DNA of 64,000 nucleotides from Selaginella tamariscina. Lineage: Eukaryota > Streptophyta > Lycopodiopsida > Selaginellales > Selaginellaceae. A model generated the notes under the pieces. That model was not told the DNA's origin. It saw nothing but the letters and a program-made list of their open reading frames with translations, and searched no databases. The stretch's first letter is position 1, and every line of letters starts with the position of its first letter. Where the stretch lies: assembly GCA_003024785.1 (NCBI GenBank), contig PUQB01000732.1, positions 1 to 64,000 on the forward strand, written 5' to 3'. Of the stretch, positions 1,748 through 54,230 are shown piece by piece. A program made the translations under genes and the position numbers.

Positions 1748-1951
1748 TAGAGTGATGAATAGTTGTAAATGAGTGTAACATAAGGCATTTTTGTATATTT
1801 CTTTTATATTTGTACAGAAAATAAATTCTCAAGGATTAATGAAGCTTTTAGTTCAAACATGGGTCACACATTAACAAGGTAAATAATATACCTTGATAAT
1901 TTTAAGGTCAGCTAATTATCATTTTGCAGATGTAATGAAATAATTGAGAAC

Positions 1952-3489: not shown

Positions 3490-3914
3490 AAACAATGGGA
3501 GAGATGAACACTCATCTCCAAGAACGAGATCTCCCTAAGTATATCTCGGATGATGATACACAACCGACGGATATACCTAAAGATCTAAAAAATAACTGAT
3601 TCTATTTTAGGGAGGAATATTCAAGAGAAAAAGATTATTCCTGTAAAATAGAGTAACCCTAGAAAACAGAGCATTCCTGTGAAACGGATTCAGGATGACG
3701 TGGCAAAATCAATGGCTCAAAGTGCATTGAACCAAGAAATTCAATCACGTTGGACAATTAATACATATTGCCCCATATATTAAAAATCAAATCCTGGAAA
3801 TGTTGAAATTATTCCAAAATCCTACCTGCATACAGGAAATGAAATTCACCGAGTAGAAAAACATTATGAAAAAGAAGGTGATTATGATGGGTATGTGCCC
3901 AACATTACTGTATA

Positions 3915-5271: not shown

Positions 5272-5308
5272 CAGTGAGGACACTGCAAAGATTCAAGGTG
5301 GGGAATAG

Positions 5309-5850: not shown

Positions 5851-5879
5851 CTTCATTACTAGAAATAAGCCAAAGAACT

Positions 5880-6362
5880 TCAACCTTTAGATGAGTGGAA
5901 AGGAGTATGCTTTCACTCAAATTTGTTTGCAACGACTTGTACACTACCAGCCAAAAGAAAATGTTCAACAATGTAATTTATGCATGTGCGACTGCACACA
6001 GTATCATGGACCTAGTCAGGGGTCCTTTGGAATTTGTCTGAGTATTCAATTTTTTGTACTAAAGGGTCTGTTGAAGTGCTACATCCCGAAACCGTGTGTT
6101 TTTTGCCATTGATATAGATGAGACAGTAGTTGATAACTTACAAATGTGGATAGAACGTTTCTCAAATAACTACTTGAACAAACCAATCCAGAAGTATATA
6201 AAAAAGTATCTTTTGGAGAACGATGAGAACTTAAACTTTACATCAATAAAGAATGACTTTGCATCAGTGTCTTTTTCCAAAGGAGAGGATGAAGTTAACA
6301 AAGGAGAAGTCACACAAGGACAAACTAATAAAACATTGTCAAGTAAAGAATCATCAGAATGA
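5880..6362 (+). pseudogene. Methyltransferase-like C-terminal remnant, copy B
   Basis: This matches the C-terminal third of the methyltransferase-like gene at 2-1747. The segment after TCAGGGGTCC (about 6017) corresponds to the motif I region but contains stops. After a frame change it reads FFAIDIDETVVDNLQMWI, parallel to FAVEKDKTMVEDLNKWI of copy A, and then an acidic, Ser-rich tail ending at 6362. The 3' flank (6363-6612) is nearly the same as the flank of copy C (56130-56508). The N-terminal half is missing; the retroelement LTR at 5309-5850 abuts its left side. Confidence 0.55.
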
Positions 6363-6612
6363 TAAAGTGATGATGATAAACCTATTCCCAACGACACAGA
6401 GCATCCGCTAGGAACTCTGAAAGTAACAAAGTAGAAGATAATTAAGGGGTCATACATAGTTGTAACTTGTAAATGGGTAACATAAGACAATTTTTATTGT
6501 ATATGTTGTACAAAAAAAATAAATTCAAGGGCAAACATGAATCATGCTTTATCAAGGTAAACAAATATTACCTTGATAATTTTATTTCCAACTCGTTTAG
6601 AGCCAATATAAC

Positions 6613-8480: not shown

Positions 8481-8619
8481 TTGTCACAAAGACTTCTCTA
8501 AATTAATCACGAAGGGCAATGTCGTCCTAATTGATGTTGTGTAAAAGTAATCAAAAGTCAAAAGCATATTCAGATGGTACACAAGAACCTTGCTATAATT
8601 GTCAAAACTTGGTTATTGC

Positions 8620-9251
8620 TGTCAAGCCACGATCCATGAACAAGGAAGAGAGTAGGATTCCAAGAACAAGAAGGCTTGACTCAGGAGCAGGACAGGGAGC
8701 AAGACAGAAACTAGGAACTCAAGAGCAAGACAAGGCGCAGGATAGGATCCAGGAGCAAGACATGAACATGATAGGATTTGGGAGCAAGACAAGAGCAGGA
8801 CAGGAAGGCGCAGGATAGGATCCAGGAGCAAGACAGGAACAAGATAGGATTCGGGAGCAAGACAAGAGCAGGACAGAAACCAGGAACAAGACAAGAGCAA
8901 AAGGCAATGAGCAAGACAAGAGCAGGAGGCAAGGAGCAAGACACAAACAAGACAAAACAAGAATGATCATAGAAAGACTGGTGTTGATAGTAACTGATTG
9001 TACAACAATTAGGTCGAAGCTTTTATGCTCACAACTCCAAGAGCTAATCTAGGCATGAGTACTAAAAGTGGCTGCATGCATCTAAAAGTGGTTATGTGCA
9101 TGCAGAGGCTAAAACGAGTTCACATGTCCCCTAGGCATCCTGTAGGCATATCATGTGGGAATATCCTGTAGGAATATCCTGCAGGCATATCCTGTATCCC
9201 GTATCCTATATCCTGTATCTGGAATCCTGCATCCTATATCAGGTCGTGACA
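8620..9251 (-). repeat. 3' LTR of G2, with internal minisatellites
   Basis: It starts TGTCAAGCCACG and ends GTCGTGACA on the plus strand, the reverse of the G3 LTR termini. Positions 8685-8960 hold an irregular tandem array of GGAGCAAGACA / GGACAGGAACAAG words. Positions 9125-9240 hold repeats of CCTGTAGGAATATCC and its variants. Long leucine/cysteine-rich open frames across this LTR are by-products of these repeats. Confidence 0.8.
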
Positions 9252-9261
9252 TCACCTCCTC

Positions 9262-10405
9262 CTAAGGACGAGTTCCACGAGTCTTGGGACTTGGTTTAGC
9301 AGGATAATGCCGATGAAAGGTAGCAACCTTGAAAGAAACATGGACGAGAATCAAGGATGCTGCAACTTCGTACTCAGGTTCCTCGTCAATGACCACAAGA
9401 GGGGGAGGAGAAGAAACATGACCAGGAAGAGAAGAAGGATGATACGGCTCCAACAAAGAGGTGTGAAACACAAGATGAAGTTTCACCGTAGATGGTAACT
9501 CAAGTCGGAAAGCTACAGGATTGACCTCCGCCACAATCCTGTAAGGGCCCAATCGTTGAAAATCCAACTTAGAAGAAGGCTTGTTGGCGAATATGTCAAC
9601 GAAGAAGCACACGAGATCACCAATCTTGTATACAGGTGCCGGCTGACGGTGAGCATCAGCATGATGCTTGTATCATTCCTGTACCCGCTGAAGATGAACC
9701 CGGAGATCATCCTGTACCTGACAAAGAAGTTGAAGACGATCCTGTACTACAGGAGCGGAAGAAGGAGAAGCAGGAGGAGCAAAGTCAAAACGTGGATAGT
9801 AGCCTGTAAGAGCAAAGAAACGTCTAGCCTGTAGATGCATGAATGGAGTTGTTGTGGGGCAAACTCCGCCATTGGAAGAAGGTCCAACTAGTTGTCCTGT
9901 TGGTAACTGATGAAAGCAAATATTGCTCCAAAGTTTGAATTGTGCGTTCTAACTACCCATCATTTGTGGATGATATCCTAAAGAAAGATCCTTTAACGTG
10001 TAGACTTCAAAGAAGTCTCACCAAAACTTGGACATGAATTGTGGGCCTCGATCATAAACAATGTCTCAGAAGACCATGATGTCAGAACACTTCACGGAAC
10101 ACCTCAGCAGTTGTCTAACCTGTAGCCGTCTTGTTGTAGGGTAGAAATGAGCCTGTTTGGTGAAACGATCAACCACACAAGAACTGTATCGAATCCACGA
10201 GAAGGAGGATCTATGAGGAAATCATAGAAATGGATTTCTAAGGAGCAGAAGGAACATGAAGAGGACGAAGAAGACCAGAGGGTGCATGATGAGGCATTTC
10301 GACCTGTTACAGGTGTCACAGCTTCGTACAAATCTTTCCACAAAACCTCACAACCCAGGCCATCAATAGTTGCGAGTCACCAACTCCACTATCTTGGCCA
10401 CCACC
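9262..10405 (-). pseudogene. G2 integrase C-terminal region, decayed
   Basis: Minus strand. Nearest the LTR is a region (9612-9262) with the family segment LGPYRIVAEVNPVAFRLELP followed by HLVFHTSLLEPYHPSSLPG, the GPY/F-type tail of the integrase. A short relic of a chromodomain-containing end follows (FHRHYPAKP). Compared with G3 (33280-33557), the chromodomain core is deleted. Farther upstream (10100-9990) the integrase core is only a relic, with DRGPQFMSKFW readable. Several stops and frame changes make it inactive. Confidence 0.65.
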
Positions 10406-10564: not shown

Positions 10565-11980
10565 TCAAGACGAATGTGTGAGAAACATTCTTTGCCAAGT
10601 CGTCTGTAACCAACTGCGAATGGATGTTCTGTAGGAGTGTTGAATTTGCTGAAGCCTAATGAACCTGTAGTGCCGCAAGTCAGAATTAATTAGGACCCAA
10701 CAACACTTGCCTTTGACAGTTATATGCAAGATCGCCTGGGTCGGTGCAAGGTAAGAGCGCCTAGACAATGCGTCCACCTTGCCATTTCGAAAACCGGGCA
10801 TGTAAACGATGACGAAATCAAAACGTGATAGGAACTCTGCCCACCTAGCCTGTCGCTGACTGAGAACTCGAGCCATTTGAAAATACTCCAGGTTCTTGTG
10901 ATCTGTAAGAACTTGTACAGGACACAGCACCTTCCAGGAAATGCCGCCACTCCTCGAACGAATCCATAATGGCCTTAAATTCCTTGTCATGAATCTCGTA
11001 ATTGATCTCTGCCGAAAGGAACTTACGAGAGTGAAAAGCTACAGGATGAAGCAACTTGTCTTCTCTAACTTGTGATAGGACGAATCCTACTGCAAAATTG
11101 AGGCATCTGCTTCAACGAGAAAAGGACGAGAAGGATCAGGATGTGCTAAAATCGGAGCTGTCGTGAAGGCGTCCTTGAGTGTTGTGAATGCATGTTCCGC
11201 CTTGTCGGACCAAGAGAAAACCCTGTGCGCTTGGTGAGTTCGTGAGTGGAAGTACACGCTTGGAGAAGTCCTGTATGAACCGCCTGTAGAAGTTTGCAAA
11301 GCCAAGGAAACATTGTACATCTCGTACAGACTTGGGCCTCTCCCACTCCACGATGGTCTTCACCTTGTGCATGTCCATGGAAACGCCAGCAGGAGAGACG
11401 ATGTAGCCCAAGAACTACAGAATCCCTATAAAAAACACTTCTCCAACTTCGCATACAGGCCATGCTCGCGAAGCCGCTGTAGAACTAATCGTACATGCTT
11501 GTCATGTGCCGCCTGGTCCTTGGAGAAAATCAAAATGTCGTCGAGGTAGATCACCACAAACTGGTCCAAGAAGTCACGAAAGATGTCGTTCACCATGTGT
11601 TGGAACACGGCTGGGGCATTGGTAAGGCCGAAAGGCATCACCGTGTACTCGAAGTGTCCATACCTTGTACGAAAGGCAGTCTTCCACTCATCGCCTGGAC
11701 GAATCCGTACAAGGTTGTAGGCCCCTCGTAAGTCGATCTTCGTGAACACCTTTGCTCCTCGCAGCCGATCGAGAAGTTCCGGGATCAATGGCAACGGGTA
11801 CCGATTCCGAATGGTGACTTGATTCAAACCCCTGTAGTCCACAACCAAACGTAAACTCCCATCCTTCTTCTTGACAAAGAAGATAGGTGCTCCTGCAGGG
11901 GACTTTGAGTGACGAATGAAGCCGGATGCCAAGTTGTCCTCGATGTACTGACGAAGAACCTCCAACTCTGTGGGTGACAA
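10565..11980 (-). pseudogene. G2 reverse transcriptase and RNase H
   Basis: Minus strand. The RT block 11980-11426 is intact over about 184 codons: [21 protein letters not shown], then [28 protein letters not shown] and the catalytic [13 protein letters not shown] frame change follows at about 11440, then [12 protein letters not shown] and [17 protein letters not shown] (11410-11280), the RT thumb and connection. RNase H is spread over frames at 11100-10640: [42 protein letters not shown] and KVDALSRR. Frame changes at about 11440, 11270 and 10930 disable the polyprotein. Confidence 0.8.
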
Positions 11981-11999
11981 TGCATAAATCGGTCCGAAT

Positions 12000-12665
12000 G
12001 GTGGAGTCTTTCCTTCCGCAAGATCAATAGGACAGTCGTAGGACCTGTGAACAGGAAGAACTGCAGCCTTGTGCTTGTCAAAAACGTCCTTAAAGGAGTG
12101 ATACTTGGATGGTAGGGAAGAAAGAGGAGAAGGAGAAGGAGAAGGAGATTGAAAAACAGGGAGTCGGATACAGGAAAGGTAGAAGAGGACGTAGGAGTTA
12201 CTTGAAAGGCAAAAAGGTGGAAAGGAGCAGGATCAGTGGCAAGTTCATGCATGGTAGTGGTAAGAACTCGGAGAGGAGAAGGAGGGAGCTGTGACTGAAA
12301 AAGAGGAAGGATCTTGGGGGTGGAACAGAAGCAAGTAAGAAAAGAGGCAGGATTGGAAAAACCTGTGTGGATGTTGACGAGTGTACAGGATTGGAAGAAT
12401 CCTGTACAGAAGTCCGTGGTTGCACAGGAGTGAGGAAGCCTGCGAGTGTGCTGACGAACCAACAGGAGGTGGATCCTGTTGAGGAGGAACCTTCGACACT
12501 GATACAGGATTGGAAGAACCCTGTACAGGAACCGCAAACTTACAGGAGTGGAGAGAGCTCGGATGTGCTGAGGAACTGACATGAGGTGAATCCTGTCGAG
12601 GAGGAGTCTTCAACACTGTACAGGAACAGGCACGGTCAATCCTGTAGCTTGTACTGCCTCAGACA
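12000..12665 (-). repeat. G2 protease-RT linker with degenerate tandem repeats
   Basis: Repeats built on CAGGATTGGAAGAACCCTGT and related words occur at about 12370-12625. The plus strand is rich in GAGGA/CAGGA. The equivalent linker in G3 (32199-32900) has expanded. No conserved domain is present. Confidence 0.65.
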
Positions 12666-32905: not shown

Positions 32906-33557
32906 CACTCCTGATTCACCTCCTGTCAATTCATCAGCACTACAGGTTGCTCCTCCTGTTTCTCCTTCTTCTGCTTCTGTAGTACAAAATCGTCTCCAGC
33001 ATCTTCGTCAGGTACAGGATGATCTCCGGGTTCATCTTCAGCAGGCACATGAACGATACAAGCATCATGCTGATGCTCACTATCAGCCGGCACCTACATA
33101 CAAGATTGGTGATCTCGTGTGGCTTCTTCATCAACACATTCGCACCAACAGGCCTTCTTTTAAGTTGGATTTTCAACGATTGGGCCCTTACAGGATTGTG
33201 GCGAAGGTTAATCCTGTGGCTTTCCGACTCGAGTTACCATCTACGGTGAAACTTCATCCTGTGTTTCACACCTCCTTGTTGGAGCCGTATCATCCTTTTT
33301 CTCTTCCTGGTCGTGCTTCTTCTCCTCCCCCTCATGTGGTCATTGCCGGTGAACCTGAGTACGAAGTTGCAGCCATCCTTGATTCTCGTCTTCATCGCCG
33401 CCAACTTCAATACTTGGTGAATTGGAAAGGTTATTTGCCTACTGATCACACTTGGGAACCTGCATCCAACTTACTTCATGCTTCTTCTAAAGTTGATGCT
33501 TTCCATCGGCATTATCCTGCTAAACCAGGTCCCAAGACTCGTGGAACTCGTCCTTAG
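32838..33557 (+). CDS. G3 integrase C-terminal domain with chromodomain (remnant ORF)
   Basis: An intact open frame of about 239 codons. It starts in the repeats, then joins the integrase tail: LRVHLQQAHERYKHHADAHY, YKIGDLVWLLHQHIR, LGPYRIVAKVNPVAFRLELP (GPY/F module), HPVFHTSLLEPYHP and finally a chromodomain LQYLVNWKGYLPTDHTWEPA (about 33400-33465). The catalytic integrase core is absent. Chromodomains of chromoviruses target integration to heterochromatin. Whether this fusion is translated is unknown. Confidence 0.7.
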   Translation: MLKIYPRQDSPYVSSSAHPQALSTPDSPPVNSSALQVAPPVSPSSASVVQNRLQHLRQVQDDLRVHLQQAHERYKHHADAHYQPAPTYKIGDLVWLLHQHIRTNRPSFKLDFQRLGPYRIVAKVNPVAFRLELPSTVKLHPVFHTSLLEPYHPFSLPGRASSPPPHVVIAGEPEYEVAAILDSRLHRRQLQYLVNWKGYLPTDHTWEPASNLLHASSKVDAFHRHYPAKPGPKTRGTRP

Positions 33558-33568
33558 GGAGGAGGTGC

Positions 33569-34094
33569 TGTCACAACCCGATACAGGATGCAAGATTCCG
33601 GATACATGATACAGGATACAGGTTACAGGATATACCTACAGGATATGCCTGCAGGATATTCCTACAGGATATGCCTGCAGGATATTCCTACAGGATATGC
33701 CTATAGGATATGCTACAGGATATGCCTAGAGGATAAGGGTCACTATTCTTAGCTCATGACTAGATTAGACTCATGACTAAAGACTCATGACCAAATTAGA
33801 CTCATGACCAAATTAGCTTGGAGTTGTGAGCATAAAAGCTCTGACCTAATTGTTGTACTATCAACACCAATTTTACTATGATCAATCTTGTCTTGTCTTG
33901 TTCTTGTCTTGCTCTTTGCTTCTTGTTCTCTCCCTGTCTCGCTCCTGGATCTTGTCCTGATCCTGTCTTGCTCCTGGATCCCGTCTTCTTGTCTTGTTTC
34001 TAGTTCATGTCTTACTCTCGGTCCTACTCCTGAGTCAAGCCTTCTTATTCTTGGAATCCTGCTCTCTTCCTGATTTCTGGATCGTGGCTTGACA
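33569..34094 (+). repeat. 3' LTR of G3
   Basis: 526 bp, preceded by the purine-rich AGGGAGGAGGTGC (about 33556-33568), a plausible polypurine tract. It is closely similar to the 5' LTR, with extra copies of the ACAGGATATGCCTGCAGGA repeat. Confidence 0.8.
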
Positions 34095-34192
34095 GGCTGT
34101 TTCTCAGTACATCTAAGGCTTGTCAACATAGTACAATAGGTAACCAAAGTCAACTTCCAAAGTAAAGAGGAGTCATAGTAAAAACTATGACA

Positions 34193-35404: not shown

Positions 35405-35528
35405 CCAGAGAAGACTTATGTAAGTCATATCTCCCAAACCTGCAGGAATTATTATCTTCTAAGAACAAGAGATTAATATAAATAAAAAAACGTCATGGTT
35501 CTTTTTTCATACTCAGAGACTCCACAAT
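35405..35528 (-). pseudogene. tRNA nucleotidyltransferase pseudogene, 3' fragment
   Basis: Matches 47782-47951 of the CCA-adding enzyme gene (from CCAGAGAAGACTTATG to CAGAGACTCCACAAT) with an internal deletion. The rest of the duplicate continues on the other side of the DNA transposon at 43838. Therefore the transposon inserted into an already duplicated gene fragment. Confidence 0.8.
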
Positions 35529-35566
35529 GAGTGTCGCCATTTTGGAGGCTTGGGGCCCAGGAGGCC
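35529..35566 (+). repeat. Left terminal inverted repeat
   Basis: GAGTGTCGCCATTTTGGAGG followed by CTTGGGGCCCAGGAGGCC. It pairs imperfectly with 43800-43837; the GGAGGCT and CAGGAGGC blocks are shared. Confidence 0.8.
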
Positions 35567-35571
35567 TGGGC

Positions 35572-35650
35572 TCGAATATTCAAGAATATTCTAGAATATT
35601 TTGGAATATTCTTTCTGGTCGGCAGTATTGGCCTCAGTCGGCAAAAAAGA
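35572..35650. repeat. Left subterminal zone: GAATATTC repeats and a CAGTCGGCA word
   Basis: Several overlapping GAATATTC palindromes (35574-35612), then GGTCGGCAG and CAGTCGGCA (35616-35643). The right end has the same two components (43673-43800). Confidence 0.7.
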
Positions 35651-35722
35651 ATTCTATTAAAACTGTTGTATTTCTTTTTAATTTTTTTTTATTAGCTTAA
35701 TTTATTACTCAATATACATTAG

Positions 35723-38700
35723 CTAAAGTTTCTTCTTCATCTTAAGTAAAGCTGCAGTTCTCGAACCACCAGTTACGCTTGGACGTGGAGGTGTTTGAGT
35801 AGGTAACTCTTCTGGTCTAATGTTCTCTGCAAGCTTGTTTGTTGCCAACCTAGAGAGTTCGAAACTCTTCTCGGTTCCTATAATATTCCTTCCGAGCTCG
35901 ACGGCAGCTAACAATGATGACCCGGTTCCGGAACCAATATCCCAGACTAGGTCGCCAGGTCTACTGAGACGCTCGATCAAAAGCTGCATGAGTCGAACAC
36001 TCTTCGGTTGAATCATAATCCTGCACAATCTTCCATTAGGATAAACATAGCAAAGCACTTCCTTACCAAGCCTCCTGATAACGGTCGGCAGTGTCGACGA
36101 GGATCGTGTTCGTCAACGCCAGAGGGTTTGGCCTCTTCGACTTCTTCTCAGAGCTTTGCAGCACCAAGAGAACTAACAAGTTATCCTGCCACATAGACCA
36201 AGTTAAACTTGAACTTGAATAGCTAGCTTACCTTAATTTTGTCACGGTATCCCCAGCCTCGTGCACGGTAGACGCTGTAAGTCCCTGCAACCTCCAAGTT
36301 GATTACTGCAGCCGCCTGAATCACCGCCGAAACAGAAGGAGAACTCGCGAAGACGACCATGAAACCACTCGCTGCCAAGTGCATTCCACTGAACTGCAAG
36401 GCCTCCTCAAACTTCACCGGATCTAGCTGCACAATGTCCTTGTTGATGCTAGCACCTCCATATACAAGCTCATTGGGCAAGTCGAGGATGATGAGGTTGA
36501 AGCCGTATTCACCTACCACTTCCTGGAACAACGTTTGTGACTCAACCGTATGTAGTCTGTCAACCTGTTCGGAGCTTGGTGTACACCTCTGTCTGGGAAG
36601 CACCTGGCTCGAAGAAAGACCTGCTCATCTCCTCCATGTCGCACACAGCTAGGTCGTAGGATCCACGGGATGCAGCCAGGGTCGGGATGAAGGTCATCAG
36701 GTCGTCCTTGATGTCCAAACTAGCTACAAGTGGCTGTACCTCATTGATTGTAAAGTCGAATGCCGGCGGAGGTGCTGTAGAAGAGCTTGGTCCCGCTCCC
36801 GATCCCTTTGCAGGTGTAGTTGTCTTCCGCACCGTCTTCTTCATCTTGCTCTTCTTGATAGCCTCTACTTCTTCTGGCTCCCAAACAATCGCTGGTAGAT
36901 CATTGGCGTGCATGTCGAATAGTGTGCTCTCCCAAGCTGGTGGCTGTTGCGACGGACAGTCGAGCCAGAATGGAACATGCTCCCGTTCGAACGGTGTTAG
37001 AGCTCCTCTGCTCTTCGACCACATGTGAGGCTCGCTTGTATGATCTGTCCACAGCTTCATCGTATGGGACGGTGTCATTTGCTTCGCCAGTATGAACCTG
37101 CAACACAAAGTCAGACAGTAGCAATGCTGGATTGAAAGCTTACCTCCATATCATCCGACGCGCAGATTCCTCACGCTCCAGAAACTCATTCGGCTCCATC
37201 GAATAAGTGAACCGTATGCAGTCATGGAAGGGCTGAAAGACCAGGCACTTGCTCCGAATTCTCATCTCGTCAAACCAGCTCATGAAGTCGACATCCGTTC
37301 CAACTTCTTCACCATCCTCTCGCAACCCCTTAAGGATCTGAATGGCTTCCTCGCGCACAGCCTTCCAATATAAGTCCAAGGTGAACCACTTGATCCACTC
37401 TTTGTCCTGCATGCCCGGTAGCCCAAGTGTCTGTTGTTCTGCCTTGGATTCGAGACGGGTGAGCTTGTTCAGGTATCGGAGTCGCAGCATGTTTGGAATC
37501 TTCGCCCTTGACATCGCATACAGCTTCTCAATGCCCATCCAGCGACACTGCTTATGAGAGATGTTTGTCACCTTCTGGAACCACTCCTCCCCCAAGTCTG
37601 GGTCTATGATGGAGAGGAACTTGTGCATACGCTTGTCATGCTTCTTGTACACTAGCTGCTTTAGGTTCACCTCAACCTGTGAATTGCCCTTAGCACTGGT
37701 GACTGCTCTGTCGAGATCATCGTCGATCTCGTTCTGCACATAGAAAGTTAAAAATTTCTTTCCTATAAATTAAATCGGAGGTTACCTTGAAAAGTATCTT
37801 TGCGCAGATCAGGTTCGGAAGAGGATGCCAAGCCGTCTTTCCTGATGAACTCTCCTTCCACTTCCGCACCTCAAGACGATCAACCTCCGTGAGTGACTCG
37901 AGGATTTTCTGAGTTCCTTCTGTACTAGTGCAGACCGCCTTTACAGCGAGGAGAATATGTGGTAGCGTTGTTTCCACAGATGTTGCTGAAGATCTGTTCA
38001 ACGAAACTGTAAGTCTAAACTCTTAACAAAAAGAAAAGAAAATACTCACATGTTAATCGATTGGAACATCGAAACCAGTTGAAGAATGTCGAGGTTCTCC
38101 GTGGAGATGAAACTCGATCGAACGCGAATAGCCCATCGCTGGTTGTCCTCTGCATCCTCTCGGTACAGCTTCTGCAAAGCCTGTAGCCTATGGTTCCCGT
38201 CCCAGCAGCTAAACTTCCTGTTTGAGAGCCTTGAAGCCCACTGTTTGTACTCCGGCTGAGTAAGAGCTTGCTCGAAAGACCGGTGCTGCTCGTACTGAAT
38301 CGTGTCCTTCGACAGCTCCGATAGCTCCTCAGCAGTGAGTCGATCTCCGATGGACAGAATGAACAAGGCCGTGTTGCGTAGATAACCAGCCTTCTTCAAC
38401 GATGACACCAGCCTGTCCAAGTCCCCTGGGTTCACTCGTCGAACCACCTCGTTGGAATGTATTCTGCAGATGGGCACATCAGGAGGATCACCAAGTCCCT
38501 TGATAGTAATTTTGTCGAGCAGGTTTGCTGAGCTCTCCAAATGCAGGCTCGCCGGTATGCTGTATAACTCCTTCGGCTCCTTATCGCTCTTCGCCTTCTT
38601 GCCTTTTGAATCAGCTTTCCCGCGGCCTCTCTTTTTGCTGACTGCCTCCTCCAAGTCGTCCTCGCTAGCTTCAGCTGCCTCTGTCATCTGCACTTGCTCG

Positions 38701-38945
38701 TTCAGGACTGCAACCTCAGCGGATGAAGGAGGCAACTGCGACGAGCTCTCCGGGAAATCTGTGATTGTTGGTGGAGGCTGTTCTTGCTCAACTGCTACTA
38801 CTCCAGACTGAGTCACTGGAGGATCCTCCTTTGCTACATTAGATGGTTCTCCTCTCTTGCCTCGCTTCTGCTTCGATATCCTCTTCTCTTCCCGTGGCTC
38901 TTCATCAGGCGCAGTCTCTAGTAGACGTTTTGAAGCTCTCACCAT
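35723..38945 (-). CDS. ParB-like domain fused to a beta-class DNA methyltransferase (transposon-borne)
   Basis: Minus strand. Exons: 38945-38050, 37993-37786, 37733-37144, 37097-36232, 36185-36067 and 36020-35723. All introns are GT..AG and 46-56 bp. The total is 2977 bp, one base over a multiple of three; a single-base frameshift near 36564 accounts for this, giving about 991 residues. Start MVRASKRLL; residues 1-130 are basic and acidic with KKRGRGKADSKGKKAK (nuclear-signal-like). Residues about 155-310 are ParB/sulfiredoxin-like: VPICRIHSNEVVRRVNP, DLDRLVSSLKKAGYL and the WDGNHRLQAL box corresponding to GERR-x-x-A of ParB. A long middle part follows, with no family recognised. The C-terminus has FNLIILDLPNE (motif IV position; DLPN instead of DPPY), MIQPKSVRLMQLLIERL (motif X) and LVWDIGSGTGSSLLAA with IGTE (motif I). 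The IV-X-I order is beta class. ParB-methyltransferase fusions are known in phages and bacteria. A role in marking the element's DNA is inference. Confidence 0.78.
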
Positions 38946-39020
38946 TTTGTAACTCTGGAAAGTAAACACACAAGTCAATTGATGAGGAGTCAAAATAAAA
39001 AAACAAACAAAGATGACTAA

Positions 39021-39990
39021 CCTTGTGGCTGCCGACTCAAGCTAGATGCTGCCGACCCTCTCAGTCGGCAGAGAGATGTAGAAGAAAAAACCTGCCGACT
39101 GAGATAGTTTGTGCCGACTCTGTCAGACGGCACTGAAGAGATAATGGTGCCGACTGAGATAGGATGGTGCCGTCCCTCTCAGACGGCACAAATGGGAAGA
39201 CCCATTAACTGTTTTAAAAGAAATACTTGAGACGCAAAGAAAAAAAAAACTAATTCAAAATACCTTGTGGCTGCCGACTGAAGAAGGATGGTGCCGTCAC
39301 TCTCAGTCGGCACAAATGGGAAGACACTATAACTCTGAAAAAAAACATTGTTATACGGATACTTGAGCCGCAAAGCAAAATATAAACAAATTCAAAATAC
39401 CTTGTGGCTGCCGACTGAAGAAGGATGGTGCCGTCACTCTCAGTCGGCACAAATGAGAAGACACATTAACTCTGAAAAAAAACAATGTGATACGAATACT
39501 GATCCAGAAAGCAAAAAAATATCGAACATACCTTGTGGCTGCCGACTGAACTAGGATGGTGCCGTCACTCTCAGTCGGCACAAATGGGAAGACCCATTAA
39601 CTCTGAAAAAAAAACCTTGTGATACGAATACTTGAGCCAGAAAGCAAAAAAACAAATCGAAAATACCTTGTTTTTGCCGACTGAACCAGGATGGTGCCGT
39701 CACTCTCAGTCGGCACAAATGGAAAGACCCATTAACTCTGAAAAAAAACATTGTGACACGTATACTTGAGCCGCAAGGAAAAAAATAAATAAATCGACGA
39801 TACCTTGTGTTTGCCGACTGAACCAGGATGGTGCCGTTGCTCTCAGTCGGCACAAATAAGAAGACCCTATATCTCTGGAAAAAGAAATACTTTGAGCAGC
39901 AAATCATAAAATACAGAAATTACACATACCTTGTGGCCGCCGGCTGAGCAGGATGGTGCCGAGAATCTAAATCGGCACAGAAATCTCCAT
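39021..39990 (-). repeat. Tandem array of exon-like units with TGCCGACTG/CAGTCGGCA hairpins
   Basis: Units start (plus strand CCTTGTG...) at about 39021, 39263, 39400, 39531, 39666, 39803 and 39929, mostly 126-137 bp apart. On the minus strand each unit looks like an exon of about 71 nt, with acceptor TTTTTTTTCAG before AGTTA and donor CAAG before GTAT, followed by an intron-like stretch of about 60 nt. The same acceptor and AGTTA precede the methyltransferase ATG (38945). Inside each exon-like unit TGCCGACTG and CAGTCGGCA form an inverted pair about 20-25 nt apart. Most likely these are duplicated 5' leader exons of the methyltransferase gene. Several units are also open in one or two frames, so a coding role is not excluded. 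Confidence 0.75.
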
Positions 39991-40475
39991 TGTTATACTT
40001 GGGCGCTGCACGAATCGAGTCGAAATGGATGGCGCCGCAGTGGAAACCGTAACTCTGAGATCTGAGATTGAAGAAACCCTCTGGATCTGCCGCAGTGGAA
40101 ACAGATCTGAGATTGAAAGAACCCTAGCCGCAATGGAAACAGTAAACCCTATCTACCAAAAAACCCTAGCCGCAATGAAAACAGTGAACCCTACGGAATA
40201 AATGTGACATTAATATTTAGGGTTTATTTTAAAATATGTGAATAATTGGTAAATGTGAAGATATTTCAAATCATAAAAGGTAGAAATTAAATTAAATCGG
40301 TGATACTAGAGAGGACATCATTAAGAACACTGTGAACTGGGCAGCATAGAATTAATTATATACAAACGTGTATTCACGTTTATTGTTAACGATTGTAATT
40401 TTTTTTTGGTAAGGAAAGTGTGTTTAATCTTTTGCTTTGCTTTCCTAAACCACCGAGCTTTCTCCTTGCGTTGTC
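39991..40475. promoter_or_regulatory. Divergent promoter zone of the transposon genes
   Basis: Between the exon array and the transposase ATG. It contains four copies of GCCGCARTGRAAAC (about 40033, 40088, 40128 and 40170), two of them within CCCTAGCCGCAATG repeats. The remaining 270 bp up to 40475 are AT-rich. Two transcripts must start in this zone or in the array. No certain TATA box was chosen. Confidence 0.5.
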
Positions 40476-43400
40476 ATGGCCAGAGTTACCTATGAAGGCA
40501 TTGACAAAGATTTCCCAGTCGATGAAGATGGAAATGCTTTTGTGTTTGAACATGATCTTCACATTGCTTTCAACATTCCTTGTTGGTTCAGTATACATGT
40601 GGTTCAATTGATGTCAGTTTCTGCGAGTTCTGGAGAAGATGTGGAGTTGTTACCAGAAGGCAATGCATCAAACCAGTTTGTCTTTTACACATTGTGCCCG
40701 GCAAAGGGCCCGTTGTTCAGGTTGCGGACAGAGGAGCGTGAGGAATCCATGCTGGTGTGTCTTCTAAGAGCAGACAAATGTAGGATAGGGAAGGATCTCA
40801 TTGGTTCGTCTGAAGTTAAACGAGTCTCTGAACTACCGCAGATATACAATGGAAATGTCATTTTCGAACTTCCCCCTAAGACAGAAAGCACAGAGAAGTA
40901 CTCGGGGATGAATCGCAAGGATGGCTGCTACCATTGGACACACCCGAGCACAACACACTGGCATGTTCCGGCGCGAGTCAGTCGAAGTTCATGTGTCGGA
41001 CATCTCCAATGCATCAATCCTACCTGCCCCTACTTGGCTTTTGAGAAGAAAGCAAATGAATGTCACTTCAAGGGTGCTGTGGAGAAGGCAAAGACAACTG
41101 AGACAGGCAAAGTAATAGGCATAAAATGTAAGCATTGTGGAGAGGAGCCATTGCTGGTGCACACTTGTCCGGCTTATGTGTACTACATTCTGCCAGACGA
41201 CATTTCTTTTACAAGGTTGTTCATTCACAGAGGTGTTCATCAGCATCCAGTCAGCCCCTCAGTGTCAGCTTCAAACGTTCAGCGAGCCAGATCTAGTGTC
41301 AGCAACGTGGTAAAGAGCAGTCCGCGAACCAATCAACGAGTGATTGAGTTTCAAGCCGCGCGTGAGCTCATCTTTGAAGAACTTTTCAAGGAAGAAGGAG
41401 AAGTCTCGTACACTGGTTTACTCTCAAAACTTGAACCTCTAACAAACCATCGAAGGTATTTTTTTTAGATCTCTACACACTGACGTGACCTTTTCTTTAG
41501 GACTCGGGACTGGATTACACAATCAAGACAGAAGGAGACACACTTTAGAGAGGGTTACGAGGGTCTTCTGGAGCTGAAGACAAAGCTGCCAATACCTTTC
41601 ATTCACGTCATACATGTTCCAGGGATGGAACTGCATGGTGCTGAGGAGCAGCCTCTGATCTTCAAAATGACAGTTGAGGGACCGGGTTCAGGAGTTGAGT
41701 ACATCAGAAGGTGTCAAAGTGGAGGAGACCTTCATGATCAATGGGTTGTTCTGGACCACACGCACCGCATACCAGACTGGGCGACCAATTGGAATACACC
41801 TTTATGACCCATTGTAAGTTGTAAAACTCTTCATAACACTTTCTAATCTTCGTTATCTAACGCTCTCTTGCAGTGTCAGATCCATGGTGACTATAGCTTA
41901 CGCAGATATGTGCCGCGAAGATAATGTTGCAGTGCTGAAGTTCTTGAACACAATGCTAGAGGTTTGTAAGAAGCAGGGTTTGGAGAATGTCAACTTTGCT
42001 GGTTTCATGTCGGATGAGGCTGGAGCGATATGGATAGCCTTGCGCCAAGTATTCAACAACGGAGCAAAGATGAAAGGGAGGGAAAGAAGCTGTCTGTTTC
42101 ACTTTATGCAATCCGTGCGTCAGGTGACAAAGAAATGGATCGCAGAAGAACATCGCGAAGAACACATGAAGCTTGCTCGTGCCTGGCCTGCAGCACTGAA
42201 TGAACAATCTAAGAAAGAACAACTGGCAATTCTCGAGTCTTTTTGGGAAGGACGAGCGTCAAACATTCGAGCTTTGAAGACATGGCTGTCTTGGTGGATC
42301 AGGCATGAGGACCACATCTCCATGGCGGAACTGGGAGACATGACAGAAGAAGGACTCGCGAGCGTTCCAACTACAAACAATGCTGAAGTGATTCACGCGA
42401 GAGCAAGAAGAGCAAGATTGGCCAAAAGAGTACCACTGCTGGAGGCGACAATGTTAGACCTCACCGATGCAGTTATGCAGAGTGCGAAGGTGAAAGCGGC
42501 AATAGAAGGGAGGTATACAGGGTCAGGGCCTTCGAAGGAAACTCTGTTGAAACGAGTGCAACGCAAACTCTCTGAGGGGAAAAGTGTATCTCCATCAACA
42601 ATTATTAATCTGGTGGAAGGCGAGGAACACTTGACCAGCCCGGAGTTCACGAGTACCACTAACGTTCGAGTGCAAACTGTTAGGAGAACAGTCACAGGAA
42701 CAGAACAGTCTGATGCTCGACGTTCACACAGACATGATGTAGAGTACACAGAGCGGGTGGTCCAAAACAACAGGAGAAAGAGGTTAAGGTTCGAAGAGGT
42801 TTCGGAGAGAGAGATTGCTCAAACAGAGTGGGCCATCAGACGAATCGGAGCATCCAGTAAGGTTAAGTGTTTGGGGATGAATCAGGAAGGAACTGCTCTG
42901 TGTGGAAAACCAATCGGTTATCCAAGCAGAGTGCCAGCACCAGGATTCTATGGAAAACGAATGTACATTGATGCCTTGGGGAATGAGGAGTATGTACAAC
43001 AGATGATGTGGTTCTGCCCAAAAGATTCAGGGTGTTTCACGCGGCCAAACGGCAAAATTCTTCGGTCACGAATTCCAACACCACCAACGGTTTGGCCTGT
43101 GCTCAAGGAAACGAAGCTGACAAGTGAGGAGGTCAGAGAACTACAGGATGCAGGCTTTGTTCTGGAAGGTTTACAGGGGATGGCAGGAAGAGTAGATGAG
43201 GGTCAGAAGGACAAAACACCATCGCCACCACGTGGAGCTGGATCTACAACAATTCCACCTTTCGAAGGACGTATGGTTCGGACTCCAACAAAAATGTCTA
43301 AGGAACAAGAGAAGAATTTCCGCAAGGCCAAGACGTTTTTAGGTTGTGTGCGAAATGTTGAAGTGACAGCTAGAGGACGGAAGGAGGCTTTCGTTGTGTC

Positions 43401-43641
43401 GGCAGGAAATGACTCTGCAAAGGTGACTATTAATACTTATCCTTCATGCAGTTGTTCTACATTTCAGAAGAGCAAAAGTTGGAGCCCATGTGTACACATG
43501 TACTTCGTCTATAGCCGTGTGCTTGGCTTGAACCCGGAAGTCACATATTTTCTACAAAGGCGATCGCTCAGTGACATGGAGGTCCACCGTTTGCTGGTGA
43601 ATTGCAACAGAGTTCATGACCCACCGGTGCTACAAGGATAA
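40476..43641 (+). CDS. MULE-like DDE transposase with SWIM zinc finger
   Basis: Exons 40476-41455, 41501-41813 and 41874-43641, with introns of 45 and 60 bp. The sum, 3061 bp, is one base too long; a single-base insertion near 41765 restores a protein of about 1019 residues. The N-terminal part has a zinc-binding region resembling FLYWCH/WRKY-GCM1 fingers: CVGHLQCINPTC, then CKHCGEE, HTC and HRGVHQHPV (about 41000-41260). DDE core: VVLDHTH (first Asp, about 41745-41765), RPIGIHLYDP, then FMSDEAGAIWIALRQVF (second Asp, about 42006-42055) and CLFHFMQSV, the family C-x-H block. A basic region and a CX4C..C-type cluster follow (42870-43045). The C-terminal SWIM motif CSCSTFQKSKSWSPCVHM (C-x-C-xn-C-x-H) lies at about 43447-43500. 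It would bind the TIRs and subterminal repeats and catalyse excision and insertion. Confidence 0.82.
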
Positions 43642-43672
43642 ATGGTTTAGGGTTTAGGATAATGTTTATTAA

Positions 43673-43799
43673 GCCAGTCGGCATATATTAAGCCAGTCGG
43701 CATATTAAAAAAACTTATATATTCTAGAATATTCTTGAGAATATTCTAGAATATGCTAGAATAACCCTAGAATATCCGCGAATATACTAGAATAATATG
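43673..43799. repeat. Right subterminal zone: two CAGTCGGCA words and GAATATTC repeats
   Basis: AAGCCAGTCGGCATAT occurs twice (43673-43703). It is followed by a run of TCTAGAATATTC-type palindromes to about 43795. This mirrors the left end. Confidence 0.75.
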
Positions 43800-43837
43800 A
43801 AGCCTCCTGAGCCGGAGCCTCCTTTTCGCCGAGACCC
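43800..43837 (-). repeat. Right terminal inverted repeat
   Basis: On the minus strand it starts GGGTCTCGGCGAAAAGGAGG and continues CTCCGGCTCAGGAGGCTT. Followed directly by the second CTCCACAAT. Confidence 0.8.
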
Positions 43838-43846
43838 CTCCACAAT

Positions 43847-45798: not shown

Positions 45799-46810
45799 TT
45801 ATGGCCTGCACCAAACCGTACTATCCAACCCAGCATATCTTGAAACAGCTCCATTGCAGGCTTGAAGTGACCATTTCCACCGTAACCTCCCAGCATTGTA
45901 TTCCAAGCCTGCAAGCCTCTCAAAGGCATTCCCCAGAAGCTCTATCGATATGCCCATTGTGGGCATACGTTGCAAGCATAGTGTTCCTGGAAAGCACATC
46001 CCAACATTGGCATCTGCTCGAACACTGACAAAGCCTCCCTTGGAAAATCGTTCTGCACCAGCAAAGACAGAATTCCAAGCCACCACATCTCTCCGCAGCT
46101 GCTTCTCCGGCATTGAATCGAACATTCCTTTCGCCTGTAAGATGCAGCATATCCAGCAAGCATAGCGTTCGTGGTGTATTCGTCCTGTGTTCGAACAAGC
46201 CTCATAGCCAGCCAGAAGAGCAGTCCAGGAAACCACATCTTTTGCAGGCATATCATCCAACAATGCCTTCGCTTTTTGCAAATGTCCAATGTGGGCATAT
46301 GCTACGAGCATGCTCGTCCACGAAGCTGGGGTTCTTTCTGGCATCCAGTCGAACAATATCTTGGCTTCTTCGAATCTGATCGTAAGCTGAAACCATGGTT
46401 CCCCACGACGCTGCATCTTGCATCGGCATCTTCTGGAACACAATCGCGGCCTCATCCAGATGCCGCTTCTCGCATACGCTGCGAGAAGCGCATTCCAGGT
46501 AACCACACTCCTGGGCACTCGATCGAATGTCTTCTTCGACTCTTCCATGCATCCCCTGCGCGCAAAGACGCCAATCATGGTAGCTCCGGAGAATACATCT
46601 GGATCCGGCATCTTCCGGAAGGGGCAGGTGGCCTCCACAATATGCCAGCATGAGCACCCAGGAGTAGGATGTGCCACATCTGCCATACATTTGGATGAGG
46701 TGTTGGAGAGGTAGAATGCCGGCAGTGCCCTTGAACAAGCTGTGTCGAGAGGTGAGCAGCGCGGTGGACATTCCTGACCTGAGAGAGGCTTCTTGATAAG
46801 AGCAGCCCAC
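45799..46810 (-). pseudogene. Pentatricopeptide-repeat (PPR) protein, frameshifted
   Basis: Minus strand. PLS-type PPR motifs are readable across three frames: LQHLIQMYGRCG (about 46710), PDVFSGATMIGVFARRGCME and VVTWNALLAAYARSG (about 46600-46480), RTPASWTSMLVAYAHIGHLQ and KDVVSWTALLAGYEAC (about 46350-46200), and RRDVVAWNSVFAGAERFSKG (about 46090). PPR proteins bind RNA in chloroplasts or mitochondria. About seven repeats are visible, with frame changes near 46680, 46440 and 46190. No start with a transit peptide and no DYW or E domain was found. Probably a truncated pseudogene. Confidence 0.7.
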
Positions 46811-47282
46811 TGTGAAATATATATGAGTAATATGCTCGAATCTATTTTAATCTAAATAAAAAGGGTAAAGGGCAGCTTAACCTTCACATTAATTATTTAG
46901 TAATAATAAAAAAGGGTGGTGACCCAATGTGATGCATATAAGAGTGATTTTAGGCGGTTTTAACTCTTGGCCAGCACTGCGATGACAAGTTGAGTCGGGT
47001 GATGTTGCTGAAAAGGAAAACCATGATTTTGTAAAGCCCAAACTTGAAGATGCAAAGATTGAGGCTGCGAATAACGGTGGTGCTACAACCATCAAGATCC
47101 AAAAGGTCGAAGGTATTGTCGCTCAAGTTAGCAAGAGGAGTCGGGGGATGCTCGTAACGGGAAAAATGGCCATCACGTCCAGGCACCAAAGACCGCATCT
47201 GATCTGACATATAAGTAGATTCCAGTTGTTGCCGCTGCCATATGTGCACGACAAGTATTCACGCTTCCACTGGTGGCGAAGT
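46811..47282. other. Intergenic, nothing certain
   Basis: Short minus-strand frames (47249-46950) contain no motif I can defend. The 3' end of the tRNA nucleotidyltransferase transcript (minus strand) must lie here. Confidence 0.4.
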
Positions 47283-50144: not shown

Positions 50145-50502
50145 TGTAAGGAAGTAGACTTACGTAATGGACTCATAACTGCTAAGTGAATATTCAAGAA
50201 TATACTAATGATAGGTGTACATAGATCTAGAAGTCCCATAAAGGTACATAGTCCATAATAGAAGAGTCCATAACATAAAAGGATATAGGCCTATGATATA
50301 AAAAGGGACAAAAGTATTTAGGGTGATCACGGTCCTTAGGACGAGCTGGGTACTAGCGAAAAGTATTGTACTAGTGTGTTAAAAACACGATATTGCAAGT
50401 CTGCATATTGCATGAGGGAGAACACCACGTGTTCTTTGGTTGGGAGGTTTGAGTTGGCAAATCTTGTGTGCGTGTCCATACACGTGTATTAGGAGCGTTA
50501 CA
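50145..50502 (+). repeat. 5' LTR of G4
   Basis: TGTAAGGAAGTAGACTTACG to GGAGCGTTACA. Nearly identical to 54255-54620 over the shared part, so the insertion is fairly recent. Confidence 0.85.
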
Positions 50503-51880
50503 ATTGGTATCAAGCCACACGATCATGAGCGACAACCCTGTGGTTGTGCCTAGAGTGATTGAGGCTAAGAAAGGTGAAGAAATTAATATGGAAGTCGAAC
50601 ATGAAAAGGGAACAACTCTGTTTTGGAATATGAATGGACTAATGAAGCTCTTACTACTAAATTTGCTTGTGTTAAATCCACTCTGAAGACACTTGTGAAA
50701 GATGTTCATGAGGGTCTTGATTTTTTTCGTGATGAGCTATGAGGGTTATCGAAAGTTTCGTGGTTTTAAGGGTTCCTCTTCCAAACATTTTGAAAAAAGG
50801 CTTGTGCTGAATTTTGATGGTTGTGGCGGGCCAGTGATAGCTATTGCTTAGTTAGCTAATGCTAAAAAGCTAGTGGAATTGCAAGGCCTTACGTTAGATG
50901 AAGCTTTTCATATAGTGACTTTTGCCTTGATAGGAGATGCACTCAAGTGGTGACATTGTGTGAGTGTAGAAAGAGGAAAAAGTGGTCGATTGGTGGACTC
51001 ACTTGAGGAGTTTAAGAAGTTATTTTCTTCTGAATACTCTCTTGCCAATGATTTTAAGGTGGCACTGCTAGCACTACGTAAGTGCACACAGCAAAATAGT
51101 TTGGATAGCTACATCAAAGAAATGACTAATTATTTCTCAAGGACTGTTTTACCAATGGAAGTCCAAAAGACGTACTTTTTGGATGGATTGGTAAGTCTAA
51201 TTATGAAATCTCAGTTGGATGTTCTTATCGTGATAAGGGACGGTTTGAAGAAAATAATTAGTCATTTCTTTGATGTAGCTATCCAAACTATTTTGTTGTG
51301 TGCACTTACATAGTGCTAGCAGTGCCACCTTAGAATCATTAGCAAGAGAGTATTCAAAAGAAAATAACTTCTTAAACTCCTCAAGTGAGTCCACCAATCG
51401 ACCACTTTTTCCTCTTTCTACACTCACACAATGCCACCACTTGAGTGCATCTCCTGTCAAGGCAAAAGTCACTACATGAAAAGCTTCATCTAACGTAAGG
51501 CCTTGCAATTCCACTAGCTTTTAGCATTAGCTAACTAAGTAATAGCTATCACCGGCCCGCCACAACCATCAAATTTGGCACAAGCCTTTTTTCAAATGTT
51601 TGGAAGAGGAACCCTTAAAACCACGAACTTCCGATAACCCTCATAGCTCATCATGGAAAAAATCAAGACCCTCATGAACATCTTTCACAAGTGTCTCCAA
51701 AATGGATTTAACACAAGCAAATTCAGCAGTAAGAGCTTTATCAGTCCACTCATACTCCGGAATAGAGTTGTTCCCTTCTTCATGTTTGACTTCCATATTA
51801 ATTTCTTCACCTTTCTCAGCCTTAATCACTCCAGGCCAACCACAGGGTTGTTGCTCATGATCGTGTGGCTTCAATACCAA
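50503..51880. repeat. Large inverted repeat made of gag (two arms of about 630 bp)
   Basis: Left arm 50503-51134 and right arm 51254-51880, about 90% alike by eye, spacer about 120 bp. The left arm reads gag on the plus strand (VERGKSGRLVDSLEEFKKLF). The right arm reads the same gag on the minus strand (51514-51197 and 51937-51641). The right arm ends at the reverse complement of the primer-binding site (GGCTTCAATACCAA, about 51866-51880). RT sequence resumes directly after it. Confidence 0.88.
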
Positions 51881-54230
51881 GTAACTATTCGAGAACAAGA
51901 TGTGATGAAAACAGTTTTTCGAACTCGACAAGGTCATTATGAATCTTTAGTAATGCCTTTTCAAATTGGGTTGACTAATGCACCTGCTACTTTTATGACA
52001 TTAATGAATAACATTTTTCACGGTATATTGACCAATTTGTGCAAGTGTTCTTAGATGATATTTTAATATATAGTAAAACTCCTACCAAACATTTGTTACA
52101 TTTAAAACTAGTGTTAAAAGTTTTACGTAAGCATAAATTATATGCGAAAATGTCTAAGTGCGAATTTTTTAAACCCGAAGTAGAATATTTAGGTCATGTG
52201 GTTTCTTTTGAAGGATTAAAAGTTGATCCTAAAAAGGTGGCAGTTGTAAAAAATTGGCCAATTCCACATGATATGAATGAACTACGTAGTTTTATGGGTT
52301 TAGCTAATTATTCTAACCGTTTTATCCTTGGATTTTCAAGGGTAGCTTTGCCTTTAACAAACCTACTTAAGCACGATGTACCCTTCGTGTGGGAAGCTAG
52401 TCAAAATGATAACTTTGAAATGTTTAAGTCTTTATTAACTAAAACACATGTGTTTGTTATAGCAGATAATGCAAAACCTTACGTGGTATATGCGGATGCC
52501 TGTGGGGCGGCACTTGGTGCTGTGCTCATGCAAGATGGGCATGTAATTGCTTATGAAAGCAAATAACTTAGTGATGTGGAAAAGCATTATTCCACATATG
52601 AACAGGAACTATTGGTTATAGTTCATGCATTAAAGTTATGGAGACATTATTTCCATAATGGCCAGCTGTTTAAGGTGTATACTGATCATAAACCACTGCA
52701 GTATTGTAAGACACATAAAGATTTAAATGCTCGCCATGCACGATGGAAATTATTTTTGGATGAATTTCCTTATATGAAAATAATATATAAGGAAGGTAAA
52801 CATAATGTGGTGGCAGATGCATTATCGTGTTAAATGCTTAAGTACTGTATCCAAGTTGCATAGTCCCTTGGTGAATACATTCTGGCTGCTCAAAATAAGG
52901 ATCAGGAAGCTAGAAAATTGCTTTCTATGCATGTAGAGTCGTATACCGTGCATATGGCATGTTATTTTATAAGGGGTGATTATATGTCCCTAAGGATAGA
53001 GAAATACTTTCTCGTATTATGTTTGAGATGCATGATAGCCTGCTGGCTGGACACTTGAGTGAAAAGAAAACATATGATCTAGTTAAACAAAGGTTTTACT
53101 GAAAACATATAAAGAATGATATATGTAATATATCAAAACATGTGCTACATGTCAGTCAGTTAAGGCTGAGCGAGTTGCACAGCCTAGCTTATTGCATCAA
53201 TTAGAAGTTCCACATCAACATTGAGAAAGTATCTCTATGAATTTTATTACTCATTTGGTAAAGACACAGCAAAAGCATGAGCAAATATGGGTTATAATTG
53301 ACTGTATAACTAAGTATGCTCGTTTTTTACCACTCAAAAAAGATGCTAAAGCTGTGGACTTAGCACGTTTGTATGTGTCAGAGGTATTTCCTACCATGGG
53401 TATGCCTTGTGATATGGTTAGTGATCGAGATACTAAGTTTACTAGTGATTTTGGCTTAATTTTTTTCGAGGTTTGGGAATTAAGCTTAAAATTAGTAGTG
53501 GTGATCATCCACAAATAGATGGCCAAATTGAAAGAGTTAATCAAGTTCTTGAGGATATGTTATGAGCTACTGTGGGTAATCACCTAGGTAAATGGGATAA
53601 ATATATTCCCTTAATAGAGTTTGCTTAAAATAATAGTAAGCATGATTCTACCTCTATGAGTCCTTATTATGCAATGTTTGGACGATATCCTCGTACTTTT
53701 TTGGATATTTGTATAGATTGGAAAGAACATATGGCTGATAACAAGGCTTGTGAGTTAACACACACTTGGAGAATATTCTTCAAGACTATAAACGTAATAT
53801 TTTTAAAACTCGTGATCGTCAAGCCAAGTATGCTAATAAGCATCGTTCATTTCGTCACTTTCATATGAGTGATAAAGTCTATGTTGAGTAATATTTCTTT
53901 TGACTTATAAAAGATCTTCTATTGAAGCACTACAACAAGGTAAATATGATAAATTGGCTCCTAGGTATGCTGGTCCATTTGAGATTATTGAGAAAGTCAA
54001 TAATGTTGCATATAAATTACAACTGCCTACTGGGGTGCATATACACCCGTTTTTCATGTTAGCCAATTGAAAAATGCTTTAATTCGAAGTGAATATTGGA
54101 TTGATATCTTTAAAAATGCATGAGCAGTTGATCAACTCCCAGAGCAAGTTGATGGTGCTCCTCCAAAACGTCGATGTGGTAATATATGAGTTAATGTGCA
54201 CACTGAAAACTGGTTCTTCAATCTTTGAGG
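51881..54230 (+). pseudogene. G4 pol: partial RT, RNase H, integrase
   Basis: RT begins abruptly in the palm ([20 protein letters not shown], then [16 protein letters not shown]). After a frame change it has [10 protein letters not shown] (catalytic DD) and GLANYSNRFILGFS (51900-52350). RNase H: YADACGAALGAVLMQDG (52490-52540), HYSTYEQELLVIVHALKLWR and GKHNVVADALSC, ending at 52833. Integrase: [45 protein letters not shown] and SPYYAMFGRYPRTF (53290-53710), with stops between. A GPF/Y-like YAGPFEIIEKVNNVAYKLQL follows at about 53965-54025. RT fingers are missing, replaced by the inverted gag arm. Not functional. Confidence 0.85.

Follow-up and report, generated by a model that had tools for sequence, protein, structure and literature searches.

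A recently amplified two-gene DNA transposon of Selaginella tamariscina with a methyltransferase-type second protein and an arrayed candidate binding word

The window analysed here, 64,000 nucleotides of contig PUQB01000732.1 from the lycophyte Selaginella tamariscina, contains an 8.3-kb DNA transposon with two divergent genes at positions 35529-43837. A transposase is encoded on the plus strand, a second gene with a DNA methyltransferase-type C-terminus lies on the minus strand, and the noncoding DNA between them carries a repeated short word. The element is flanked by identical copies of the 9-bp target-site duplication (TSD) CTCCACAAT, at 35520-35528 on the left and 43838-43846 on the right, and a paralogous stretch near 47950, with the same 9 bp and uninterrupted sequence, represents its empty site. 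The terminal inverted repeats (TIRs) are imperfect. The left one (35529-35578, plus strand) continues into GAATATTC-type repeats, and on the right the same type of repeat and the TIR together occupy 43719-43837 (minus strand). Alignment across the terminal 50 bp gave a local score of 26, which was reached by 1 of 2000 shuffles. The initial annotation had described a complete 8.3-kb unit bounded by a 9-bp TSD and imperfect TIRs and matched by uninterrupted paralogous sequence, and all of these were borne out.

Six further genomic places (L047-L052) were compared with the window element. L047 to L050 were 99.2-99.4% identical to it along the same span and L052 was 92-95% identical, while L051 is a fragment only. 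In L047 and L050 the element ends at the same bases as in the window, and each copy has its own exact 9-bp TSD. The visible ends of L048, which is cut by the contig end, and of L049, which has no clear TSD, fall within a few bases of those of the window element. The more diverged copy L052 has a TSD of 8-9 bp. Runs of the GAATATTC type (GAA-nn-TTC) were observed at 35574-35611 and 43719-43795, and likewise at the ends of two members of a second family, L053 and L054, and hence in both families. These runs sit at both ends of the element, not at the promoter, and resemble heat-shock elements.

The transposase comprises exon 1 (40476-41455), exon 2 (41501-41813) and exon 3 (41874-43641), all on the plus strand. 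The letters that we assign to the D, D, E triad by presumed analogy with Mutator-like transposases lie at 41754 in exon 2 and at 42013 and 42385 in exon 3, with a C-x2-H at 42091 assigned in the same way. A SWIM-like segment follows at 43447-43497. It scored 15.7 bits against a Pfam cut-off of 19.6 bits. One distant relative was found outside the genome (P0001, 644 aa, sources lgn/ena), with 26% identity over 99% of transposase exon 3 and a SWIM score of 17.5 bits. Of the DDE/SWIM transposase named in the initial annotation, the D, D, E and C-x2-H letters could be located, and the SWIM score remained under the cut-off.

Mutator-like elements (MULEs) have TSDs of 8-11 bp, typically 9 bp, and exactly 9 bp was found for the window element, L047 and L050, and 8-9 bp for L052. 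With typical MULEs the element shares, besides the TSD, the D-D-E with C-x2-H and the SWIM-like C-terminus. Nevertheless, its TIRs are short and poor, and Pfam MULE showed no match to the spliced catalytic segments of the transposase of the window element's family (family A) or of the second family (family B), nor to single exons. The D/D/C-x2-H/E letters and the SWIM-like end resemble Mutator-like transposases, but because Pfam MULE gave no match and SWIM is below its cut-off, the element is best called MULE-like, not a MULE. The original Mutator-like label is weakened to this extent, membership being based on TSD length and the presumed motifs.

The second gene is divergent from the transposase, as had been proposed, and has seven inferred exons instead of the six in the earlier model, with splice sites predicted from the sequence and an open frame of 977 aa on the minus strand. 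Exon 1 (38050-38945) contains the start, a low-complexity N-terminus and a ParB-like region with a DGNHR box at 38187-38201. Exons 2 (37786-38014) and 4 (36587-37097) are given by the exon model. Between them, exon 3 (37144-37733) encodes a conserved middle region with no Pfam domain and with 65% identity to family B. Exon 5 (36232-36522) holds a motif IV variant, LDLPNE, at 36469-36486; exon 6 (36067-36185) is defined by its open frame and splice sites; and exon 7 (35723-36020) carries methyltransferase motifs X and I (QPKSVR at 35993-36010 and DIGSGT at 35924-35941).

The C-terminus had been assigned to a DNA methyltransferase, and Pfam N6_N4_Mtase matched the second protein with 35.8 bits (E 1.1e-8, cut-off 26.7), confirming the type. 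Exon 7 alone gave 39.3 bits, and the family-B exon gave 39.8 bits. Exon 7 also matched the PHROG_67 DNA methyltransferase (E 3.8e-12) and stretches in 231 phage records, in which the annotated ones were mostly methyltransferases among the matches listed. The best match to a solved structure was MboIIA (E 0.0021). A motif X-I region for binding S-adenosylmethionine (SAM), as in N6_N4 DNA methyltransferases with beta class order, is present. No relative of the second protein was found at E 1e-3 in 5.8 billion proteins, among the best 8000 word-sharing candidates scored. Searches of viral contigs with the second protein, with transposase exon 3 and with the ParB alignment likewise brought up no relatives, and plasmids showed no match to family-B exon 7 at E 1e-8.

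In place of the catalytic motif IV, (D/N/S)PP(Y/F/W), the second protein has DLPN, not DPPY. A weak local match in the profile alignment (E 0.2) sets DLPNELVYGG opposite DPPYNVAYGD of ParB-methyltransferases. DLPN was read in family A in the window element, L047, L049, L050, L052, L009 and L013, and L048 keeps these letters in a frame shifted by nearby indels. The corresponding letters in family B are FDLPNG in L014, L015, both arms of L053, and L054. Decay of the window copy was rejected as an origin of DLPN, which is found in both families. Loss of the first proline and the aromatic residue of motif IV makes ordinary N6/N4 methyltransferase chemistry doubtful. Because both are missing wherever motif IV was read in the two families, methyltransferase activity of the second protein is considered doubtful, and the earlier suggestion that it may bind and methylate element DNA is weakened.

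The N-terminal half is less clearly assigned. The Pfam ParB_N profile had no match at E <= 10 to the ParB exon, none to family B and none anywhere in the genome; the control for the genome-wide search gave matches in 11 of 14 genomes. Profile comparison was carried out against 112 ParB-methyltransferases, 380-450 aa long and chiefly of bacterial or metagenomic origin (from 120 listed), plus a Wolbachia phage WO protein. Three colinear local matches were obtained, running from the ParB box through motif IV to motif X-I, with E values of 0.13, 0.2 and 4e-5 and probabilities of 0.5%, 0.3% and 70%. The ParB box match, DGNHRLQALQKL, had an HHalign probability of 3% or less. Taken alone, the box gave a local score of 19.9 (shuffle mean 12.8; 2 of 150 shuffles as high), and in global mode a score of 2.1, below the shuffle mean of 3.2. 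Post hoc removal of a 41-residue insert extended the match across the ParB core, and the resulting score was reached by 1 of 150 shuffles. Loosened gap settings performed worse: 14 of 150 shuffles scored as high, or 5 of 150 once the insert was taken out. Searches of phages and of the PDB with the ParB exons of the two families gave no convincing match, the best phage E values being 7 and 2. The ParB identity of this half is likely but unproven, the profile comparison being suggestive. Of the ParB-methyltransferase fusion first described, the methyltransferase part is thus recognized by Pfam, whereas the ParB part is suggested by profile comparison and not recognized by Pfam.

Copies of the element were sought in the assembly containing the window (300,702,823 bases, 1391 contigs). 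For the ParB exon, 150 of 1534 candidates were scored, and all 150 matched with E <= 1.7e-91. Of these, 77 (counting the window copy) reached the full score with 100% protein identity. The search with transposase exon 3 scored 75 of its 2740 candidates. At least 46 of these 75 matches had a divergent ParB-exon match 1.5-9 kb away, and the other 29 had none among the matches listed. The element family has been amplified very recently. According to the initial annotation, its reading would be refuted if other copies showed the minus-strand gene to be an unrelated host gene trapped once. Many copies and a second family were found, and this origin of the second gene was rejected.

Family B has the same layout as family A, with proteins about 56% identical; transposase exon 1 also shows 56% identity between the families. 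One full family-B element was examined (L054), and its transposase is partly degraded. Between the second gene of family A and that of L053 (one arm), the proportion of synonymous differences (pS) was 0.81 and that of nonsynonymous differences (pN) 0.29 over 897 codons. The values against L054 were 0.82 and 0.26 over 812 codons. For the transposase, in which the comparison covers exon 1, pS was 0.73 and pN 0.30 over 326 codons. Against the diverged and itself broken copy L052, the ratios were 0.39 for the second gene and 0.59 for the transposase. Since synonymous change between the families is saturated and amino-acid change restrained, both genes have been kept together by selection, and the second gene is a long-standing element gene under purifying selection. 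Its many copies, its presence in two diverged families and its restrained amino-acid change make it part of the element. L053 itself (G000:C531:71000-80900, positions 765-8203) is a palindromic family-B derivative in which two inverted second genes stand head to head, with no transposase and no clear TSD.

The noncoding DNA of the element contains an array of the word AGTCGGCA. All 18 sites in the window element lie within its 1,920 bp of noncoding DNA and none lies in either gene, compared with a mean of 0.03 in shuffled noncoding DNA and 2 sites in the remaining 55.7 kb of the window. One site is in the left noncoding stretch, 15 are central and 2 are on the right. The central noncoding region (38946-40475), which serves as the divergent promoter region, contains tandem repeats and holds its 15 sites at 39030-39852, many of them as inverted pairs. 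Subterminal GTCGGCA / CAGTCGGCA sites, 19 bp apart, occur on the left at 35618-35643, and CAGTCGGCA sites at the same distance on the right at 43675-43702, all on the plus strand. The terminal 50 bp of the element are free of the word. Among the other copies, the same 18 sites are present in L047, L048 and L050, and L049 has 17, none of them in genes.

The same word is arrayed in family B. The centre of L054 contains 19 occurrences of AGTCGGCA, and the overlapping word CAGTCGGC comes next among the shared words, with 13 and 20 occurrences. Among the top shared 8-mers listed, those not overlapping AGTCGGCA were common to both centres at most twice. Many of the family-B sites adjoin as the palindrome CAGTCGGCATGCCGACTG, whereas in family A the word is paired at wider spacing, together with the direct pairs close to either end, whose members are 19 bp apart. 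The 18-mer CAGTCGGCATGCCGACTG was found at 1,135 places in the genome and its reversed control at none. Of eight listed arrays of CAGTCGGCATGCCGACTG, six are separated by 3.15-3.17 kb from one of the methyltransferase matches listed, and the other two have no such match among those listed. An element-specific motif arrayed in noncoding element DNA, as in a VANDAL/VANC-type system, is therefore present. The conserved CAGTCGGCA array, which the initial annotation did not include, is a candidate for the sites that would be bound in a model of anti-silencing or regulation. Retention of the array word by two long-separated families suggests a self-recognition system.

In the reading that we prefer, with a probability of about one half, the element is a recently amplified two-gene cut-and-paste transposon with a VANC- or TnpA-like self-recognition system that uses a ParB/methyltransferase-type protein. 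The transposase would move the element. The second gene product would be a DNA-binding protein of bacterial or phage ParB-methyltransferase descent that recognizes CAGTCGGCA sites of the element itself, in the promoter region common to the two genes and close to either end. Binding would keep both genes expressed against host silencing, control transposition, or both, as VANC does for VANDAL and TnpA for En/Spm. Because motif IV is DLPN, the methyltransferase fold might work mainly as a SAM-binding or DNA-binding scaffold. This model builds on the observed element structure, copy number, gene conservation and conservation and placement of the sites. We infer that the protein bound to the sites is the second one, not the transposase, and that the effect is anti-silencing or regulation.

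Several observations weigh against this model. Among the six aligned copies, that of the window is the only one with an uninterrupted second-gene frame under the exon model used; the first stop is met at residue 397 in L047 and L050, 407 in L048 and L049, and 54 in L052. The whole transposase is open in none of the six. The diverged copy L052 keeps only 6 AGTCGGCA sites (none in genes), and tandem duplication inflates the central site count of family A. The ParB assignment lacks Pfam support for the ParB exon and for family B, and the transposase could be a binder of the CAGTCGGCA sites. Finally, the motifs of VANDAL21 are described as having the same orientation and as differing between subfamilies (PMC5735166), whereas many inverted pairs and a word common to distant families are found here.

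Part of the frame damage has a likely technical origin. Short indels in exon 3 of the second gene cause the early stop in four of the five broken copies. These indels (window 37651-37682) are single-base gaps that vary among the near-identical copies L018-L052. The length of exon 3 is undisturbed in 16 of the 35 locus entries matched there (some places being entered twice). Because the indels vary by copy and fall at sites where copies differ, they are likely, though not proven, to be assembly consensus errors in a high-copy repeat. The transposase frame of the window copy is shifted by a 1-bp insertion in exon 2; this insertion is absent from all five other aligned copies, and family B reads through this site as the other family-A copies do. 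In the search with transposase exon 3, 13 of 78 rows, the window among them, span all 583 residues with no stop, and 28 of 78 begin only at residue 116-117 (near window 42240). This late start accompanies a 1-base gap shared by L047-L049 and reflects either a break that arose once and spread or a consensus error that recurs. Unless such consensus errors account for it, a lineage with a shared transposase break may have spread as non-autonomous copies, a further point against the model.

A more specific form of the self-recognition model is tentatively put forward. A bacterial or phage ParB-methyltransferase may have been turned into a parS-like system, in which a ParB-type protein, with a SAM-binding and catalytically altered fold, would load on palindromic CAGTCGGCA arrays and protect copies from silencing or coordinate their movement.

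Somewhat less probable, and on the unlikely side, is that the CAGTCGGCA arrays are sites for the transposase or a transposase repressor, the second protein being an accessory factor of transposition of the maize MURB or En/Spm TnpA type with no silencing role. The presence of sites close to either end, in addition to the central ones, would fit such a factor, and the second genes of other two-gene MULEs (mudrB, mutB) are reported to have such roles (PMC6446971). Nevertheless, 15 of the 18 sites lie in the central promoter region, and the terminal 50 bp do not contain the word.

Active methylation of element DNA by the second protein, as envisaged in the initial annotation, is unlikely, whether at N6-adenine or at N4-cytosine and whether as an anti-silencing mark, for target marking or to distinguish self from host. 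In its favour, motif X-I is conserved, the Asp and second Pro of motif IV are retained and amino-acid change is restrained, but wherever motif IV was read in families A and B it lacks two residues of DPPY, the first Pro and the aromatic one, and the weak profile match (E 0.2) places DLPN opposite DPPYNV. A passenger role for the second gene, as a captured gene of bacterial or host origin without function in the element, is very improbable: DNA transposons often capture genes (PMC6446971), and the altered motif IV and the frames broken in five of six aligned copies would agree with it, but the A-versus-B comparison, with the same gene in the same place under saturated synonymous and restrained amino-acid change, largely refutes it, and 77 of the 150 scored ParB-exon copies are identical in protein.

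Elsewhere in the window, a 1.4-kb inverted repeat with arms 89% identical occupies 50497-51885. A Ty3/gypsy-like reverse transcriptase frame and related repeats, named by eye, lie at 11426-12232 (minus strand), 8619-9782 and 32947-34095, and a PPR-like open frame, also named by eye, lies at 45799-46851 (minus strand). Rfam showed no match in the window.

No description of an element of this kind was found in the open-licence literature, as judged by titles and the starts of abstracts. Among known systems, En/Spm encodes TnpA, an element protein that binds a short repeated word. The window element would resemble it in this respect, and differs in superfamily and protein. With bacterial and phage ParB-N6_N4 methyltransferase fusions, such as the Wolbachia phage WO DNA methylase (L055), the second protein shares the order ParB box, motif IV, motif X/I, the last of the three local matches being the only strong one. 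In contrast to these, it has 977 rather than 409 aa, a long N-terminus and a middle region, DLPN for DPPY, and an intron-containing gene in a eukaryotic transposon.

Mobile elements with DNA-modification enzymes are also known, and have been discussed as a means of counter-silencing. Fungal DNA transposons are described as encoding TET/JBP dioxygenases, other elements as carrying SET genes (PMC12730594), and retrotransposons as carrying cytosine methyltransferases (PMC5890265). The enzyme classes and hosts of the TET/JBP transposons and methyltransferase retrotransposons differ from those here, and the available parts of these two sources name no gene of the ParB/methyltransferase kind. The VANDAL/VANC system of Arabidopsis is likewise a DNA transposon with an additional DNA-recognition gene. 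Some MULEs are reported to carry extra genes and VANDAL elements to have a 9-bp TSD (PMC6446971), and VANC21 is reported to bind YAGTATTAY arrayed in noncoding tandem repeats of VANDAL21 (PMC5735166). The window element shares the additional gene, the short motif arrayed in noncoding tandem repeats and the 9-bp TSD. It differs in its ParB/methyltransferase-type protein, in its many inverted site pairs and in a word common to families whose proteins are about 56% identical. The family was recently active, as indicated by its many protein-identical copies, and has a defined candidate binding word; a single protein and a probe of 18 bp could suffice for direct tests of binding, methylation status and anti-silencing. 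Transposons with epigenetic machinery of their own (VANC, TET/JBP and the methyltransferases of retrotransposons) are few and informative, and to these the window element adds, from a lycophyte, a bacterial-type DNA methyltransferase fold that may be preceded by a ParB-like part.

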